Below, in pieces: positions 34,659 through 48,224 of a DNA stretch of 64,000 nt. The position numbers and the translations under genes are program-made. The notes under the pieces were generated by a model that did no database searches, was not told the origin of the DNA, and saw only the letters and a program-made list of their open reading frames with translations. Each line of letters opens with the position of its first letter. Within the stretch, counting starts at the first letter, position 1. Source of the DNA: Sulfurospirillum sp. (lineage in GTDB: Bacteria; Campylobacterota; Campylobacteria; Campylobacterales; Sulfurospirillaceae). The stretch is taken from contig JACUTU010000003.1 in the NCBI GenBank assembly GCA_014859685.1, forward strand, positions 124,001-188,000, given 5' to 3'.

Positions 34659-35374
34659 AAGTATGCGTTGCTAATTCGTGGCAAGATATCATAGCGTATG
34701 CGTATGATGGGCTTTCCTTGGAATATCGAGAATTTTTAGAAAAAAATGAAGGATATTTTCCAGATTATACGCATTTTTTGAATGCTTTTACTTCGCTAAG
34801 TTTACAAGATACACGATACATTCTTTTTGGACAAGATCCCTATCCGAGGATACAAAGTGCCAATGGTTATGCGTTTATCGATGGTGGAGTCAAGACGCTT
34901 TTTTCTCAAAGTGGCTTGAGTAAAGAGGTAAATAGAGCGACAAGTTTACGCAACTTTTTAAAAATGCTGCTTCTGGGTGAAAATATGCTTACATGTAATG
35001 ACCTTTCGCAAGGAGCAATCGCCAAAGTTGATAAAACAGGATTTATAAATTCAACAGAAGCATTGCGAAAAAATTTTGAAAAAAATGGAGTGCTACTCCT
35101 CAATAGTGCGTTAGTCTTTACATGTAAGGCACAAAGCCGATTGCATATAAAAGCATTCGAGCCATTTATGCAAAGAATTTTAGAAAAGCTACAAGGTAGA
35201 AACATCAAACTCATACTTTTTGGCTCGCAAGCTGCGAAAATTGAGCGATCACTGCCTCAAATACATAAATTTACATGTATCAAAACAATGCATCCATACA
35301 ATCTTTCTTTTATCCAAGATACATCAGTGCAGGAATTTTTTACGCCAATGCATCTTTTGCGACAGTTGGATTGA
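34655..35374 (+). CDS. Divergent family-1-like uracil-DNA glycosylase
   Basis: Protein of 239 residues, probably removing uracil from DNA. The family-1 water-activating loop GQDPYP is present (normally GQDPYH) with its catalytic Asp, together with the VLLLNSALVF strand that holds the uracil-contacting Asn. The C-terminal loop, normally HPSPLS, reads HPYNLS, keeping the catalytic His but altering the DNA-intercalating part. An extra insertion rich in Asn/Thr lies between. Its last 35 bases overlap the convergent GGDEF-EAL gene. Activity is likely but may differ in DNA-context preference. Confidence 0.75.
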   Translation: MKVCVANSWQDIIAYAYDGLSLEYREFLEKNEGYFPDYTHFLNAFTSLSLQDTRYILFGQDPYPRIQSANGYAFIDGGVKTLFSQSGLSKEVNRATSLRNFLKMLLLGENMLTCNDLSQGAIAKVDKTGFINSTEALRKNFEKNGVLLLNSALVFTCKAQSRLHIKAFEPFMQRILEKLQGRNIKLILFGSQAAKIERSLPQIHKFTCIKTMHPYNLSFIQDTSVQEFFTPMHLLRQLD

Positions 35375-37976
35375 TGCATTTTGCTGGTTGTGCAAAATAA
35401 TATCCTTGCGAGTAATCTATCCCCAAACTTTTAACCATTTTAAAAATCTCTTCAGTTTCAACATATTCTGCGATAGTTTTTATGCCCATTTGCTTTGCAA
35501 AATTTACAATAGTTGAAACAACAACAAAAGATTCTTTTTGTGTGTTGATATTTTTGATAAGTGAACCATCTATCTTAATGTAATCTGTTTGAAGTTTTAT
35601 GAGATATTCAAAGTTGCTATATCCACTGCCAAAATCATCGATTGCTATTTTACATCCTTTTGCTTTTGCTTTGTTGATAAAGATGTTTAACTGATCATAA
35701 TCTTTGATTGCTTCAGATTCGACAAGTTCCAGTACAACTCTTGAGCCAATGGTAGGATTTGCATCTAGTTGGGCAAATAAAAACTCTTGCATACTCATAT
35801 TTGATATATCTTCTACTGTTATATTGATGGAAAATTCATTTTTTGAGTGCATAAAAACTTGAAAACTTTTTTTGATCATAATCTCAGTAAGTTTGAGATA
35901 TTGTTTTGTTTGTTTTGCAATGTCTAGGAAGAAAAATGGGCTTATAATTGTGCCATCACTCTCTTCGATGCGTATCAATGCTTCATACTTTTCAAAAGCC
36001 AAAGTATTGTTGTTTACTATGGGCTGAAAAAATGGTACAACGCGATCCTCTTCTATGGCAAGTTTTATTTTACTGGAGTACAAAAGATTATCTTTATATT
36101 GTTTTGCGAGATTATTTTCTTTGCTGTAAACTACAAATTCTCTTTGCTCTTTTCTAGAGAGTTTCAGTGCCATGTCAGCACTTAAAAGTGCTTTTGTGGC
36201 ATTCTCAAAAGATATGCCACAACTGAAGCTTAAATCAATCTCTCTATCATCAAGAATAATGTGTGTTTTTTTCATGGTTTGTAAAATTTTTTCAACTATT
36301 TTTATAATATTTTTCTCTTTATACTCTTTGACAAGCAACGCAAATTCATCACCACCGTGTCTATACATAGTGTATGCAAAACTACACTCTTTTTTAACTG
36401 CAACTGAAAATATTTTGCTTATCTCTTGTAAAAGTTTATCTCCAAATTCGTGTCCATAAAAATCGTTTATCTGAGAAAATCTATCGATGTTTATAAGTGC
36501 TAAACATGGATTTTGCATAACTTTCAGATCCGCTTGCAATTTGTTTCTATTTGCAAGTTTTGTAAGCGAATCATGATTTGCTCGAAATTCAAGCTCTTCT
36601 TTATTTTTCATAAATTCTGTGATCTCTCTTCGTATTGAGATATAACCATCGATATTTTTATGAGTATCATAAGTTGGGGTTACAACGGCATCTATCCAGT
36701 AAAATCCCCCATCTTTAGTTTTGTTTTTAAGTATTCCTCTCCAAGTCTGACCCTTTTTTATCGTCCCCCACAACTCTTGAAATGTTTCTTTTTTTGTTTC
36801 GGGATGTCTTACTATATTGTGCGATAACCCCAAAACTTCCTCTTTTTTATAGCCACTTATTTGGCAAAAAAGATCATTGGCATAAGTAATTTTTCCTTCT
36901 GTGTCTGTTTTGGTGACAAGGTTTGAGACATCAACACTGCTTTGATAACTTTGTAAGGAAGCATAGTTTTCCCAGAGTTTTTCAAAAATTTCATTGATTG
37001 TATTAAAAATTTTTCCCATTTCATCATCATTTTTTTTAGGCATCGGTTTGTATCTGTTGTTGAGTATGCCTTTGAGCATATCTTGCAAATTATTTAATGG
37101 CTTGAGTACCTCTTTTTTTATAAATAATAAAAAGAAGAAAAATATAAAACTACTCATAAAGATGATAGCTAAAGTGATTAAAACTATCAATTCATCGCTT
37201 TTATGCTTTGAATGACTTTGATCAATGTTGTGTTTTAGATAGAGATGTAAATCTTTATCTAAAAGTGTTACATCTAAAGTGTCACGATCTGGAGTATTAA
37301 AGATCATTGAAACAGGATGGATTAGATTGTTTGATACAGATTTGAGTTTCTCTTGATTAAGGGAGTAGGCAATACGAAGATGTCCTACTTTTTGCGTTTC
37401 AAACATTATATCAAGATCTTCAAACATTTTGTAGAAATCATCTTCATAGGCTATTTTTTGCTTTTTTTGCTTTTCTGAGAGTTGTGGAACTGTGTCTAGG
37501 CGTATTTTTTGCTTTTTTGTTTGAAAATAACTCTTGTTCGTATCATAAGTTACAAAACCACTTTCACCCAAAAGCGGATTAAATATTTTTTGTACTACAA
37601 GAGTGTCTGCTTTGTTGTAAAGTTTGATTTCAAAATAGGAATCAATCGCAAAATACTTCTCTAAATAATGCAACAATGTACTTTTTTCTTGATCAAATAT
37701 CAAAGCATTGTAATTATTTTTATCTTCATAATTTGAAATAAGGTTAAGATGTGAAATGACTGTTTCAGTTTGTGAAAGATTTTGTGCGATTTTTTTAAGT
37801 TCTTGCTTTGTGTTGTTGAGGTAATTTTCTATTATTTGTGTATCGAAACTAATCTCCCGTTTGAGGTTATTTTCAAGCATTTCATTGCCATTTTTTACAG
37901 TAATATAAACTATAACAAGAGAAATAAAAATGGTCAAGAAGACGGCATTTAAAAAACTTTTTGTTCTTAGACTCAC
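35340..37976 (-). CDS. Membrane PAS-GGDEF-EAL c-di-GMP signalling protein
   Basis: Protein of 878 residues. A TM helix at about 8-27 and another at about 258-283 flank a periplasmic sensor region of some 230 residues; HAMP-like linker, then a PAS domain (about 345-455) with SHNIVRHPETK, then GGDEF with intact GGDEF at about 541 and EAL with the EAL triad at about 665. EAL catalytic residues appear complete (INITVED, VLELVESEA, IDDFGSGYSN, DYIKIDGS, TIAEYVE, YSQGYYFAQP), so both synthesis and hydrolysis of c-di-GMP are possible; no clear I-site is seen. It lies 10 bases after a decayed binding-protein gene that may once have supplied its ligand. Confidence 0.88.
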   Translation of the reverse strand: MSLRTKSFLNAVFLTIFISLVIVYITVKNGNEMLENNLKREISFDTQIIENYLNNTKQELKKIAQNLSQTETVISHLNLISNYEDKNNYNALIFDQEKSTLLHYLEKYFAIDSYFEIKLYNKADTLVVQKIFNPLLGESGFVTYDTNKSYFQTKKQKIRLDTVPQLSEKQKKQKIAYEDDFYKMFEDLDIMFETQKVGHLRIAYSLNQEKLKSVSNNLIHPVSMIFNTPDRDTLDVTLLDKDLHLYLKHNIDQSHSKHKSDELIVLITLAIIFMSSFIFFFFLLFIKKEVLKPLNNLQDMLKGILNNRYKPMPKKNDDEMGKIFNTINEIFEKLWENYASLQSYQSSVDVSNLVTKTDTEGKITYANDLFCQISGYKKEEVLGLSHNIVRHPETKKETFQELWGTIKKGQTWRGILKNKTKDGGFYWIDAVVTPTYDTHKNIDGYISIRREITEFMKNKEELEFRANHDSLTKLANRNKLQADLKVMQNPCLALINIDRFSQINDFYGHEFGDKLLQEISKIFSVAVKKECSFAYTMYRHGGDEFALLVKEYKEKNIIKIVEKILQTMKKTHIILDDREIDLSFSCGISFENATKALLSADMALKLSRKEQREFVVYSKENNLAKQYKDNLLYSSKIKLAIEEDRVVPFFQPIVNNNTLAFEKYEALIRIEESDGTIISPFFFLDIAKQTKQYLKLTEIMIKKSFQVFMHSKNEFSINITVEDISNMSMQEFLFAQLDANPTIGSRVVLELVESEAIKDYDQLNIFINKAKAKGCKIAIDDFGSGYSNFEYLIKLQTDYIKIDGSLIKNINTQKESFVVVSTIVNFAKQMGIKTIAEYVETEEIFKMVKSLGIDYSQGYYFAQPAKCINPTVAKDALA

Positions 37977-37985
37977 TTTTTTTCC

Positions 37986-38875
37986 TTAAAAAATCGGCTC
38001 TATTTTTGAAGCATTAGTGGCATCAATCATTTGCGAATCTATTGTTATATTTTTAGGTACACTCTGTACATTTATGAGTTTGACGATAACTTCGATACTC
38101 TCTTTTGCACTCGTAGGATAGGTAAAGCTTGCCAACTGTTTTCCATCAAGTATGGCTTCTTTTGCTGATTTGATATAATCAATGCCAACTGTTGGGATAT
38201 GTAAAGCATTGTGTTTTCGCATAACTTCTCTAGCACCTACAAGCATGCTATCACTGTGAGAGTAGATTGCATCAAATTGCACTCCATCTTTATAAACTTC
38301 CTCCAAAGCTTTGATCGCATCGCCTCTGAGAAAGTTACCTCTTTTTTTGAGAATTTTGATCTCTTTGTACTGTTTTGCTACCTCTTCAAAACCACTTTCA
38401 CGAAGATTTGTAGTTGTAACACCTTCTAAGCCTTGAAGCATCAAAATAGTGCCTTTGTAATTAAGTTTTTTAAGAAGATAATGTGCTGCTTTTTGAGCTA
38501 TCTTGTGGTTATCTGGAGCTATAAAAGTAGTGAAATTATCGCCATTGATATTTCTACTTATAAGTATAACTTTGATGTTTTTATCTATCGCTTTTTTAAG
38601 AGTAGATGAGGTTATGGTGGGATCTATCGGACTTGTAATGATAAAATCATACTCAGCATTTATAAAACGCTCAATTGCAAATATTTGCTGAGCCACAGAA
38701 CCCTGTGCGTCTTTGATTGTGACATGTAAAAAGGGTATTTGCTAGCTTCGCTTACTACTTAATCTGCCTGAGCTTTTCGCCAATCATTTGCAAGGGTATC
38801 TTGAGCAAATCCTATTTTATACTCTTTTGCAAATACTAATGTCATGCAGAGCAATGCTATAATTATAACTCTCAT
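37986..38875 (-). pseudogene. Decayed sugar-type periplasmic binding protein gene
   Basis: Reading the minus strand from ATG 38875 gives a signal peptide (MRVIIIALLCMTLVFA) and the mature start KEYKIGFAQDTLANDWRKAQAD, a typical Peripla_BP_4 / RbsB-LsrB opening (first 20: KEYKIGFAQDTLANDWRKAQ). The next codon is TAA (38759-38761 on the plus strand). Translation then continues in the same frame (VVSEASKYPF) until a T run at about 38726-38730, where one base is missing and the frame shifts; the rest (VTIKDAQGSVAQQIFAIE ...) runs on to 37986. Two independent lesions make this a pseudogene, although a 236-residue fragment without signal peptide stays open from GTG 38696. It precedes the GGDEF-EAL gene by 10 bases. 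Confidence 0.8.
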
Positions 38876-38888
38876 TTTTACCGCCATT

Positions 38889-38943: not shown

Positions 38944-40380
38944 TTAAGATTTATTTGTTTCATTAACAAGATTGTTAAGGATGTCAAAAAGTTTTTTGCT
39001 TGCATCTTCCATTATGCTGAAGTTTTCTGTGAGTGGTGTAACTGCTTGAGCTCTAAAACCACCACTTTCAGCTAAAATCTCAAAGTTTCTATGTACTTGA
39101 TTGTGAACAATTTTATGAGGTTCTTCGAGTAGCGGATAGCTTTTTGTACCAGAAAATCGCTCCTTGCCTTGTCCCGCTTCATACCATTTGCCCAATCTGC
39201 ATTCGTGATGATTGCCAAACTCTGTATCGAGATTTTCGTTGAGTATTGCAGAATATGCCCTTGTTTTAAACACAATGTGATCGATCTTTGCAAGTGTTAT
39301 AAAGATATGATTTTCCATATCATAAGCTATTGTTGCTGTTTGGTTGGCGTTTCTATTGAAATCTATAAGTGCAGTTTCAAAGCCATTAACGCTGACTTCT
39401 GAAGTATGTGCTATGTTACTGATGCGTTCAGAATTACTTTGGATTCCTGTTGTTTCTTGTTGGAGTGTTTGGATTGTGATGGCAATTTCTTGTGTTGCTT
39501 TTTGTGTTCGCTCCGCTAGTTTTTTCACTTCATCTGCAACCACTGCAAAACCTCTACCATGTTCACCCGCTCTAGCAGCTTCGATGGCAGCGTTGAGTGC
39601 AAGTAAGTTTGTCTGATCGGCAATATCTTTGATGAGTGAAACTACAGAAGAGATTTCACTTGTTCGCTCTCCTAAGGCATTGATACCCTCACTATTGGAA
39701 ACGATGAGTTCTAATAGTTCTTTGAGTTCACTGGAAACTTGTGAGACAAGTCCTAGGCTTTCGTTAGATTTGTGTGCTGTTTGACCCGCAACACCTGAAA
39801 TCTGATGCATAGCTTTAATAGCAGCAGTCAAATCTTCTTGCACACTATTGATGCCCTCATTGCCGTTGCCAAGTTCGCTAAAATGAGTAGAGAGTAAACT
39901 TTTTGCTTTACCTTTGTTGCTTTCGATAATACCTTGTACCCCTTGCGAGACATTGCCAGCATTGATTCTAAAGAGCCCTTTAAAGCCCTCGTTAAAAACA
40001 TTACGATGGGTTACACCCTCTCTTGCCGCATCGATAGCTGTTTTGGTTTCTCTTTGCAACGCTTCGACTTGATCCAATAGATCGTTGATGCTTCTTGCAA
40101 CTTTGCCTAGTGGTAAATTGAGATCTATGCTTACAACGCGTGGCTCAAGATTGCCATTGGCGGCTTCAGAAGTTACATGTAAGATTTTCTCATACAAATC
40201 TGCATTGCAAGCCATAGTTTTTTTGCCCCCAAAAAAGGAACCAGCAAAAGCACCCATAAGTAAAGCCGAACCACCCGTGAGGTCTCCTTGGCTAAATTGG
40301 TAGATGCTCACACAAGCAAGCGTAGTTCCTAGAAGAATCTGTGATTTATAGTCTTTGTAGATTGTTTGCAAATTCATCAT
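38944..40380 (-). CDS. Methyl-accepting chemotaxis protein with a C-terminal CZB zinc-binding domain
   Basis: Protein of 478 residues. Two adjacent hydrophobic segments (about 14-32 and 36-52) form a membrane hairpin with no periplasmic sensor. A HAMP-like linker follows, then the MCP signalling tip [32 protein letters not shown] (core [20 protein letters not shown]) at about 250-280. The C-terminus is a CZB domain: His in [25 protein letters not shown] and [12 protein letters not shown] supply the His/Cys zinc ligands. The start overlaps the preceding PAS gene by 35 bases. Without its own sensor it probably receives the signal from that PAS protein, as CetA does from CetB in Campylobacter. 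Confidence 0.88.
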
Positions 40381-40861
40381 AGCTTACCCCTTTTTCTTGT
40401 AGTGTTTGGTTTAGAAATCTCTCGCTAGTTTCCATTCCGCCTGATCGCTCAAGACTCAAAAGTTTTTCATATAAGGGCTTGATAATCTCAATGGCTTTGT
40501 GGTTAGCTTTTCTTCTTACCGAATAATAGCCTACGATATTGCCACTTTCGTCTAGTGAAGCGGTTACATTTGCATATACCCAGTAAAATCCTCCATCACT
40601 ACTGAGATTTTTTACATATGCGAAAACCTCCTGTTTTTTTTGGATCTTATCCCATAAGAGTTTAAATATAACTCGTGGCATATCTGGATGGCGTACGATA
40701 TTGTGCGGTTTTGTGAGCAAATCTTTTTCGCTAAATCCAGCTATTTGCATAAAAGGCGGATTGCAGTAGGTTATCCTGCCTTTAAGATCAGTTTTTGATA
40801 CCAAAAAAAAATCTGATCGCACCTCATGTTCTTTGTTTGTAGGGGTTGGTTTTATAGTCAT
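40346..40861 (-). CDS. Stand-alone Aer/CetB-type PAS protein
   Basis: Cytoplasmic protein of 171 residues, essentially one PAS domain with the Aer-type hallmark [15 protein letters not shown] and [11 protein letters not shown], followed by a helical tail. In Aer and CetB this PAS type binds FAD and senses redox or electron-transport state; FAD binding here is inference. ATG 40861 is chosen because AAAGGTGG lies 7 bases before it; the frame is open to 40888. Its last 35 bases overlap the following MCP gene, which lacks a sensor domain, so the two form a CetB/CetA-like pair. Confidence 0.85.
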
Positions 40862-44926: not shown

Positions 44927-45733
44927 TTGGTTTATTTTATTCCTACTCCGATAGGAAATCTCGAAGATATCTCGCTAAGGGCTTTGAAAACGCTTAGCGA
45001 GTGTCAAACTCTCTTTTGCGAAGATACAAGAATCACAAAAAAACTCCTTGCGTTATTAGAAGCTAGACACGGCTTAATATGCAACATAGAGCGATTTATC
45101 TCACTGCATTCGCACAATGAAAAACAAGTTTTAGACGCTATTGATGAAACTATTTTTGAGCATACCGTAGCGTATATGAGTGATGCTGGCATGCCCTGTG
45201 TGAGTGATCCAGGGAGTTATTTTGTACAGTATTGTCAAATGCACAATATCAATTATGAAGTGTTACCAGGGGCAAATGCAGCACTTTTGGCATACAGTGC
45301 TAGTGGTTTTGCAAATCCTCGCTTTATATTTTTTGGCTTTTTACCACACAAAGGAAAAGAGCGAGCCAACGCCTTGCAAGAGGTTATAAGTGCGAAATAC
45401 CCCATTATACTTTATGAATCACCACACCGCATTGAAAAGCTTATCGATGAACTTGCTGTACTTATTCCACATGTAAGGGCGTGTTTTATAAAAGAAGCCA
45501 CTAAAAAATTTGAGAAGAAAATTGTGGCTACATGTAAGCAAATCCAAGAGCAAACAAAAGTGATAAATCTCAAAGGCGAATGGGCGATCGTGCTTGATAC
45601 AAGTTGTAAACTCGATGGAGAAGCTATCAGCCAACAAGATATTTTAGCACTTGATTTACCACCCAAGCAAAAAGCAAAACTCTTAGCAAAACTTAGTGGT
45701 AAAAGTGTGAAAGAGTGCTACGAAGCACTCTAG
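44927..45733 (+). CDS. rsmI: 16S rRNA 2'-O-ribose C1402 methyltransferase
   Basis: Tetrapyrrole-methylase-fold enzyme of 268 residues methylating the ribose of C1402. Signatures: [47 protein letters not shown] and the [22 protein letters not shown] stretch. The start is TTG, 10 bases after rpmE with no good ribosome site, so it is probably translationally coupled. Its TAG stop shares CTAG with the convergent MCP gene. Confidence 0.94.
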
Positions 45734-47835
45734 TTTAGTTCGTCCATAATTTTTAAAATTGAACCCGTTTTCTCCTGTATCATCAGTATATCATGCGTGA
45801 GTTTTTGCATCTCTTCTGCATTGTGTTTCATGCCGCTAGAGCTATTTGTGATATTTTCTACGATGACTTTGATGGTCATTTGAATCTGTTCTAAGGACTT
45901 GTTTGTTTTATCAGCAAGATCTCTTACACTATCAGCAACAACTGCAAATCCCCTTCCATGTTCACCCGCTCTTGCTGCTTCTATGGCTGCATTCAAAGCT
46001 AGAAGATTGGTTTGATCCGCGATATCACCAATCGTGTTGAGTGCTTCCTCAGCTTCTTTTGCATTACTTGTAAGCATTACAAGATTTTCAGACAAAGAGC
46101 GTTGATTTGATTCTATTTGCACCATAGAATGGGTTGTTTTTGTGACAATACTATTGAGCTCATTCATCGGTTCTTGTTTGATTGTTTCTATTGATTTTGA
46201 AAGTCTATCAGCATTTTTTTGTATATTGATACTCTGCTCTTCATTTTCTTGCATGATCTCATAGAGTGAAGATCCAAGAGCATTCACACCATCACATAAC
46301 TCTTTGAGTTGGTAAGAAGTGTCTATTGTTATTTTTTGCGAAAAATCTTTGTGTTCAAACCCTTTGAGTGCGACGAGTATTTGATCGATTGCTTCATTCA
46401 ATTTTGCGTTCATCAAATTTATTTCAGCAGAGAGTTTGTTGGTGAGATAATGCGAAGACTGAAAATGGGTTCTTTCTGCAAAATCTCCATTGGACATTTT
46501 TGAGCTTACAAGTAGCACTTCACCAATGGAGCGCATATCATCAAGATTTATTGTTTCATATTGAGCGAAAGCATCACTGATGACTCCGATAATATTGCCA
46601 ATCTCGTCTTTATTGTCATCTTGTAAACGGATAGTGCGTTCATTTTTTTGATGTGTAACTATTTGCGAAAAATCTTTGATATATTCACCCAAATGCAAAA
46701 GCCTTACGCCGATAAGTTTTTTTGTAAGTATAATTGCACTAAGAGACAAAATTACTAAAATAATCACAAGTGCTGTGAGATTAAAGTAAATAGTTGTATT
46801 GATTTGATTTTGAAATTTTTCCTCTTCAGCTTTCACAAGCGTTTGTATATCATCCACATACACGCCAGTGCCTATAATCCATCCCCATTCTTTAAATGCT
46901 TCGATGTAAGATATCTTAGGTTGCGGTGTACTCAATCCAGGTTTTTCCCACATGTAATGCACTACTCCGGCACCATCTTTTTGTGCAACTTCTACCATCT
47001 CGTTAAATAAAAACTTTCCAGATGGATCTTTGGAGTTGCTTAAAATTTTACCATCAAGTGAGGGGTTGATTGGATGCATGATCATTTTTGGGGTAAAATC
47101 ATTAATCCAAAAATAACCCTTGCCATTATCATATCGCAATGCAGAAATGATATTTTGAGCCTTTTCTTGATACTCTTTTATTATTTCTATTTTGTATTTT
47201 CCGGTTCCTATGACCCAATTAAACGGTTCAAATTTAAAAACAAAACTAATTTTATCTTCAATTTTGTTAGATGTTGGATGCAGCCATTTGTACCGAACAA
47301 TTCCACTATTTTCTTCTTGAATAACTTTTGTCATATTTTTAAACAGATAAACCCCATCCGCATCTTTCATTGAACTTAGATTTTTTCCATCTAAATTTGG
47401 GCTAATTGGATGCATTATCATGGTCTCTTTAAGATCATTGATCCAAAAATACCCAATGCCATTGTCATACCGAAATGCTTTTGTAAGCTCTATAATTCTT
47501 GAATGCATCTCTTCATCGCTCAAAACTTCTTTGTTTATTTCATAAAATTTTTCAAGCATTTCCTTAAATTCAAGCCCTATGCGTTGTAATTCGTTGCCAA
47601 TATTTTTATCTTTTGAATCCTCGTATACAGATGACATTGCATTTTTTGCTATATCTAAGTGACCTTTGAGGGCATCTATGCGGTTTTGTGTGAGTGAATT
47701 TTGAAAATTTTTCAAGCTAGTGTTGCTTTGTTGCACGCTCAAGTAAATGTTACTAAAAGAGATTAAAAATGCTGTAAGTGTTACCGATAGTATCACAAGA
47801 AGTGTTATTTTTATTTGAATAGTTAAATTATTCAT
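45730..47835 (-). CDS. Methyl-accepting chemotaxis protein with two tandem Cache repeats
   Basis: Membrane receptor of 701 residues: TM at about 8-30, periplasmic part with two homologous single-Cache domains ([21 protein letters not shown] and [21 protein letters not shown] start the two, each near 20 residues), TM at about 345-370, HAMP, and a signalling tip [21 protein letters not shown] at about 612-640. Only about 65 residues follow the tip, so the second helix of the signalling hairpin is short. Cache domains of this type usually bind small organic acids. It overlaps the PAS gene upstream by 4 bases and rsmI by 4 bases at the stops. Confidence 0.87.
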
Positions 47836-48224
47836 CTTCTTTCCTCCGCGATCATTTGTTTGTAAATAGCTGTGTACTTTTCGATCTCATCTCTTGATGC
47901 CATTTTTCTAATGGAAAGATAATGTGTCCCACCAAAAGGAAAAACAGTTGCGTAAACCCAGTAAAATTTTCCTGTTTTCGAACGGTTTTTAACAAAACCC
48001 TGCCATGTTTTTCCAGCTTGTACATGTGTCCACAAATCTTTAAAAGCAGCCTTTGGCATATCTTTATGACGGATAATATTGTGCGGTTTTCCTAGCAGCT
48101 CGTCTAAGGAATATTCGGAGAATTTCAAAAAGATATCATTCGCATAGACTATTTTGCCTTTAAGATCTGTTTGTGAAACCAGCAAAGAAGTTTCCTCCAG
48201 CAATAATTCGTTATTTTCTACCAT
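47832..48224 (-). CDS. Stand-alone Aer/CetB-type PAS protein
   Basis: Cytoplasmic protein of 130 residues made of one PAS domain: [38 protein letters not shown] and [13 protein letters not shown]. Very similar in type to the protein at 40346-40861 and to the PAS domain inside the protein at 35340-37976. A TTACATGT-like palindrome (GTACATGTGT) falls in it. It overlaps the following Cache-MCP gene by 4 bases, so the two are co-translated; it probably modulates that receptor or shares its signalling complex with redox information (inference). Confidence 0.85.

Follow-up and report, generated by a model that had tools for sequence, protein, structure and literature searches.

The locus described here raises the question whether two overlapping genes, one encoding an isolated PAS domain and the other a chemoreceptor with a membrane hairpin and a C-terminal CZB domain, specify a single receptor, and which signals would be received by its parts. 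Both genes are located in a stretch of 64,000 nucleotides of Sulfurospirillum sp. DNA (the window), which belongs to a 2.1 Mb genome encoding 11 chemoreceptors of the MCP type. Metagenome-derived Sulfurospirillum genomes are its best named relatives, in agreement with a probable membership in the Sulfurospirillaceae. Our analysis suggests that they are very probably the halves of a bipartite energy-taxis receptor of the CetB/CetA type. The best overall explanation, to which we assign a probability of about 0.7, describes a redox receptor of this type with docking of the PAS protein on the HAMP region, tuning by zinc, coupled translation of both subunits and a zinc input that is dispensable. 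CetA from Campylobacter jejuni, the best-studied bipartite receptor, has so far been read as being devoid of a second sensor. If a switch based on zinc and cysteine were usual beside the flavin-binding PAS protein and had been lost in Campylobacter, energy taxis in response to two signals would become directly testable, because receptors with intact and with naturally absent zinc sites exist as orthologues, even together in one genome (G013).

Organization of the locus

The two genes and the elements at their junction are located at the following positions:

40861..40346, minus strand: PAS-only gene of the CetB type (ATG at 40861, stop at 40346, 171 aa including the stop)
40380..38944, minus strand: chemoreceptor gene of the CetA type with a CZB domain (ATG at 40380, stop at 38944, 478 aa including the stop)
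40346..40380, minus strand: overlap of 35 bp read in two frames, encoding the C-terminus of the PAS protein and the N-terminus of the MCP
40387..40393, minus strand: AAAGGGG, a sequence resembling a ribosome-binding site, within PAS codons and 6 nt before the MCP start

The overlap of the PAS and MCP genes claimed in the original prediction stands with respect to its coordinates (open reading frames 40861-40346 and 40380-38944), strand and length. It measures 35 nt in 16 of 19 scored pairs of the same family, whose MCPs are 52-67% identical to the one in the window, and in all three exceptions (L025, L026 and L032) the N-terminus encoding the hairpin is gone. Among 151 pairs where a PAS gene precedes an MCP gene, the common overlaps of 35, 32, 26 and 29 nt share a single phase, with the lengths of 32, 29 and 26 nt found in many more distant pairs that are read in the same phase as in the window. 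The overlap is thus not due to chance and its length is kept in relatives. Just upstream of the MCP start, relatives carry AAAGGAG in place of the AAAGGGG found in the window, and the simplest reading of the overlap and this internal ribosome-binding sequence would be a translational coupling of both genes.

The pair adjoins moaA also in relatives, where the moaA-linked genes are directly followed by a gene resembling uracil-DNA-glycosylase or by other conserved neighbours. An operon including the downstream genes for a periplasmic binding protein and a GGDEF-EAL protein was considered and rejected, since both are missing beside the pair in relatives. In the window, the gene for the periplasmic binding protein (37986-38877, minus strand) is disrupted close to the N-terminus, where it contains a frameshift and a TAA codon in the reading frame, and it is followed by the PAS-GGDEF-EAL gene (35340-37976).

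Properties of the PAS protein

PAS is the only Pfam domain detected in the product of the upstream gene (PAS_3, 4.1e-12), and its nearest solved structure by sequence is the FAD-binding PAS domain of E. coli Aer (8dik, 1.4e-27). The same structure is the closest match of an AlphaFold2 model (pLDDT 96.4) in a Foldseek search (E 1.2e-14, TM 0.94, rmsd 1.1 A), with the FAD-binding PAS domain of NifL as runner-up. At the positions of the FAD site, taken from Aer and CetB2 (PMC9668731, PMC12442639), the window protein contains H53, N54, R57, H58, D60, F66, W70, N85 and R116. Among 126 PAS partners, N34, R57, H58, N85 and R116 are invariant and W70 is found in 123. The assignment as an Aer-type PAS domain is thus corroborated by the match to Aer in sequence and fold and by the retention of FAD ligands, and the protein is expected to bind FAD.

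E. coli Aer itself is a single polypeptide, which contains Trp79 and has no CZB domain. At the position of this tryptophan, six residues before the conserved Asn85, a valine is found in the window and mostly an isoleucine in the family, and the flavin chemistry of the protein may consequently differ from that of Aer. The Aer mutants S28G, A65V and A99V restore FAD binding (PMC9668731), and C. jejuni CetB naturally contains all three of these rescue residues (G28, V65 and V99; PMC2628428). With G28, I65 and V99, the window protein matches two of the three exactly, which would fit a PAS domain that folds unfused to its receptor.

Architecture of the chemoreceptor

The MCP comprises five regions:

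40231..40347, minus strand: membrane hairpin, aa 12-50, with cytoplasmic N-terminus and a 3-residue turn (AlphaFold2 helices 12-30 and 34-50)
40066..40203, minus strand: HAMP unit 1, aa 60-105 (Pfam HAMP 15.5 bits, below the cut-off; AlphaFold2 helix 60-74, linker, helix from 90)
39931..40065, minus strand: HAMP-like unit 2, aa 106-150 (AlphaFold2 helix to 120, linker, helix from 136; conservation)
39301..39924, minus strand: MCP signalling domain, aa 153-360 (MCPsignal 1.3e-32)
39088..39297, minus strand: CZB domain, aa 362-431 (CZB 1.6e-13; 51.2 bits compared to a cut-off of 29.4)

The proposal of a hairpin that is not accompanied by a periplasmic domain agrees with the two predicted helices and the short turn connecting them, and the sequence places lysines at both cytoplasmic ends. 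Beyond the hairpin, the AlphaFold2 model contains two helix-linker-helix units, a long signalling hairpin and C-terminal helices. In the first unit, G76, R81, N99 and D103 are invariant in 103 receptors, including C. jejuni-type CetA, and the second, with its motif R126/G132/G135/F137, was named HAMP-like from its shape and a conserved G-x-x-G-x-F stretch. Elliott and colleagues are said to have described nine defining conserved residues of the CetA-type HAMP in 2009. In a Foldseek search with the whole MCP model, all matches were of a generic MCP kind and the top-ranking ones included no CZB structure. In the paired receptors L025, L026, L027, L031, L032 and L041-L064 the hairpin is gone and the PAS gene is kept, as would be found in a soluble split receptor.

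Relationship between the PAS protein and the HAMP region

Which part of the MCP is accompanied by the PAS gene is illustrated by 32 inspected CZB loci, which comprise the best matches phylum-wide and two loci from the genome of the window. An overlapping upstream PAS gene is present in all four CZB receptors that strongly match the tandem HAMP module of the CetA type and in none of the other 28, soluble TlpD-like receptors included. The PAS gene thus tracks the HAMP module and not the CZB domain.

The covariation between the PAS protein and the MCP is highest in the HAMP region and strongest with HAMP-like unit 2. Because raw counts of top pairs are biased by variable columns, the analysis was redone with entropy-matched columns, where, in an alignment of only about 94 effective sequences, the covariation with unit 2 exceeds that with MA/CZB columns in 2000 of 2000 draws and the covariation with unit 1 does so in 98-99%. 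Since phylogeny was not removed, we regard the result as suggestive. A single open reading frame of 695 aa (L120:2929-5013) encodes PAS, HAMP, MCP and CZB regions in one chain; it originates from a metagenome bin labelled Candidatus Gracilibacteria, a doubtful host assignment as the contig may be mis-binned. Covariation, co-occurrence and this one fusion support a model where the PAS protein would dock on the tandem HAMP region.

Conservation and probable loss of the zinc site

All four predicted zinc ligands of the CZB domain (H368, C394, H422 and H426; motif CRLGKW) are present in the window, and each is at least 90% conserved in 57 relatives across several phyla. The presence of a C-terminal CZB domain, as originally predicted, is thus confirmed by a score above the Pfam cut-off and a full set of ligands, and the domain presumably binds Zn2+. 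Within Campylobacterota, PAS-overlapping receptors of the hairpin-HAMP-MCP-CZB type are found in records of Sulfurospirillum, Sulfurimonas, Sulfuricurvum and Hydrogenimonas, and the same architecture is found in records of Holophagaceae/Geothrix, Sideroxydans, Gallionellaceae, Thiobacillus and Methylothermaceae. A complete zinc site is contained in 73 of 103 non-redundant PAS-paired receptors of the CetA type (55 with a hairpin and 18 without), and the remainder is mostly from Campylobacter and Helicobacter. Assignment to this latter class was decided by a sequence pattern, and a few of its entries are borderline cases (L106, L124, L135 and L138). Judged from these sequences, PAS-paired receptors of Campylobacterota usually carry a CZB domain, as do some from other phyla, and the CZB-bearing variant seems to be the usual form of the CetBA-type receptor. 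About 30% of PAS-paired receptors have no full zinc site, and the pair can thus do without zinc sensing.

The original prediction had regarded the CZB domain as an addition to a CetBA-type receptor, a view that is not borne out by its prevalence in PAS-paired receptors and by its traces in C. jejuni-type CetA. In the latter, no CZB domain is reported by a Pfam search. When aligned by hhalign to the profile of intact CZB domains, its tails score 96% (E 3.6e-9), chiefly in the first helix (KIDHILYKSNIY), compared to 0.07% for tails of CZB-less MCPs used as control. The tail of C. jejuni-type CetA thus appears to be a decayed remnant of a CZB domain that no longer contains a complete zinc site. 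Receptors of the C. concisus type, which have neither a hairpin nor a zinc site, nest beside Sulfurospirillum orthologues (98*). The unrooted receptor tree requires nine changes of the zinc site, a count that is blind to gain versus loss. Repeated loss of an ancestral site would be the simplest account, and because the four-ligand site is common to several phyla and a remnant is found in CetA, we consider loss of the domain in Campylobacter and Helicobacter as more likely than its gain in the lineage of the window. Since CZB domains are common in PAS-paired receptors and a remnant persists in C. jejuni-type CetA, the CZB-less model receptor probably represents a derived state.

A natural comparison is offered by the genome G013 of a member of the Sulfurospirillaceae, whose two PAS-MCP pairs differ in the zinc site: that of L020 is intact, whereas L035 lacks an intact one.

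Comparison to known systems

CetA and CetB constitute an established family; PMC2628428 cites Elliott et al. 2009 for 55 such pairs. As in the window, the C. jejuni system CetA/CetB(/CetC) combines a PAS-only partner with a hairpin MCP that contains a HAMP region and no periplasmic domain (PMC2628428, PMC3558505). The label C. jejuni-type was given to L145 and L149 on the basis of gene order and residues reported for CetA and CetB: both show the order PAS-MCP-PAS as in C. jejuni, the hairpin of L149 contains a mid-helix His with a Gly 4-5 residues to either side, and its downstream PAS protein contains G21, R50, H51 and V58 at the numbers of CetB (cf. PMC2628428). In their HAMP regions, the MCPs of L149 and of the window share G76, R81, N99, D103, E106, R110, R126, G132, G135 and F137, and positions of this region that are strongly conserved in the window's family are thus also found in C. 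jejuni-type CetA. In contrast to the order PAS-MCP-PAS, the window contains one upstream PAS gene with an overlap of 35 bp, and its MCP carries an intact CZB domain whereas that of C. jejuni-type CetA is decayed.

CetBA2 from Magnetospirillum gryphiswaldense is likewise encoded by a cetB-cetA pair of overlapping genes, where the PAS protein CetB2 binds FAD and interacts with CetA2 and where an aerotaxis phenotype was found; the text of the paper, on whose description rather than on sequence our comparison is based, mentions no CZB domain (PMC12442639). The resemblance to E. coli Aer (8dik, 31cj) concerns the PAS domain, which is the closest solved one in sequence and fold and which signals to HAMP. 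TlpD-type receptors (H. pylori TlpD, C. jejuni Tlp6 and Salmonella McpA) share the MCP signalling domain and the C-terminal CZB domain with its His/Cys/His/His ligands and CxxGxW motif, but they are cytosolic, unlike the MCP of the window, and CZB receptors that lack the tandem HAMP module have no adjacent PAS gene. The structure of TlpD and its Cys-Zn redox switch have been described (PMC12871147, PMC8262984). C. jejuni CetA was described as lacking and Tlp6 as containing a CZB domain (PMC9665402), and beyond this report CZB domains and CetB-type pairs were joined nowhere in our literature search, whose scope did not extend to the defining 2009 paper by Elliott.

Proposed mechanism and alternatives

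In the proposed mechanism, the small PAS protein would bind FAD and sense the respiratory redox state, two functions suggested by its homology to Aer and Magnetospirillum CetB2. Its docking site would be the tandem HAMP region of the hairpin-anchored partner, where its redox state would alter HAMP packing and, in turn, CheA kinase activity at the receptor tip. The CZB domain, predicted to hold one Zn2+ via three histidines and one cysteine, would flank the same coiled coil, and by analogy to TlpD the loss of zinc or the oxidation of the cysteine would probably tune the same output, in which case one receptor would integrate redox and zinc/oxidant signals. Hypochlorite is unlikely to be the natural signal for an apparently free-living Sulfurospirillum relative. 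The overlap of 35 bp and the internal ribosome-binding sequence would couple translation and so balance the two subunits. The zinc input would be common in the family yet dispensable, with several losses, apparently also in C. jejuni CetA, during which the PAS partner was kept. Only tentatively do we extend this mechanism to a general scheme, where the common bipartite form would be a two-input device, with a dissociable flavin PAS protein that senses respiratory redox at the HAMP end and a Cys-Zn switch that responds to zinc or oxidants on the same coiled coil, and C. jejuni CetA would be its reduced descendant, whose second sensor disappeared in the host-associated lineage.

The repeated loss of zinc ligands from receptors that retained their PAS partner would also be expected if the PAS-MCP pair were the energy sensor and the CZB domain a structural tail, whose zinc serves the folding or packing of the C-terminus, as in array packing or polar localisation, and does not participate in sensing. 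The disturbed polar localisation upon C-terminal truncation of TlpD (PMC13001251) points in the same direction. However, the conservation of the four ligands in relatives from several phyla exceeds the needs of packing alone and CZB homologues are demonstrated Zn/HOCl switches, and we thus consider this account as rather unlikely. Still less probable is a mechanical role of the PAS protein, which would then hold a different cofactor, or none at all, and would not sense redox. The replacement of Aer Trp79 by Val or Ile, the N-terminal PAS domain of TlpD, which is devoid of a ligand pocket, and the fact that FAD binding by C. jejuni CetB itself is so far a proposal in the literature consulted would be compatible with such a role, but the other residues of the FAD site vary little or not at all among the 126 partners, the closest folds are the FAD-binding PAS structures of Aer and NifL, and CetB2 binds FAD.

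We see very little likelihood for a third scenario, where the MCP would sense zinc or oxidants in the manner of TlpD and the PAS protein of the overlapping gene would serve a different receptor, such as the second PAS-linked MCP 5 kb upstream. Although a second PAS-MCP pair is indeed found nearby, its MCP already has a PAS gene of its own, TlpD-like CZB receptors without tandem HAMP have no PAS neighbour in any of 28 cases, and the overlap between PAS and MCP genes is conserved across genera. The evidence thus favors a CetBA-type pair, for which the claim of a split receptor is upheld by the PAS-only gene and the hairpin MCP and by the conservation of the pair in relatives.

The second pair (45730-48224, minus strand) has features of its own. 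Its PAS gene (48224-47832) encodes an Aer-type protein of 130 aa that has kept the tryptophan at Aer position 79, and its stop overlaps with the start of the MCP gene by 4 bp (ATGA). The MCP, of 701 aa, contains a periplasmic dCache_2 domain, and with such a sensor for outside signals already in place, a PAS-only partner is unusual.
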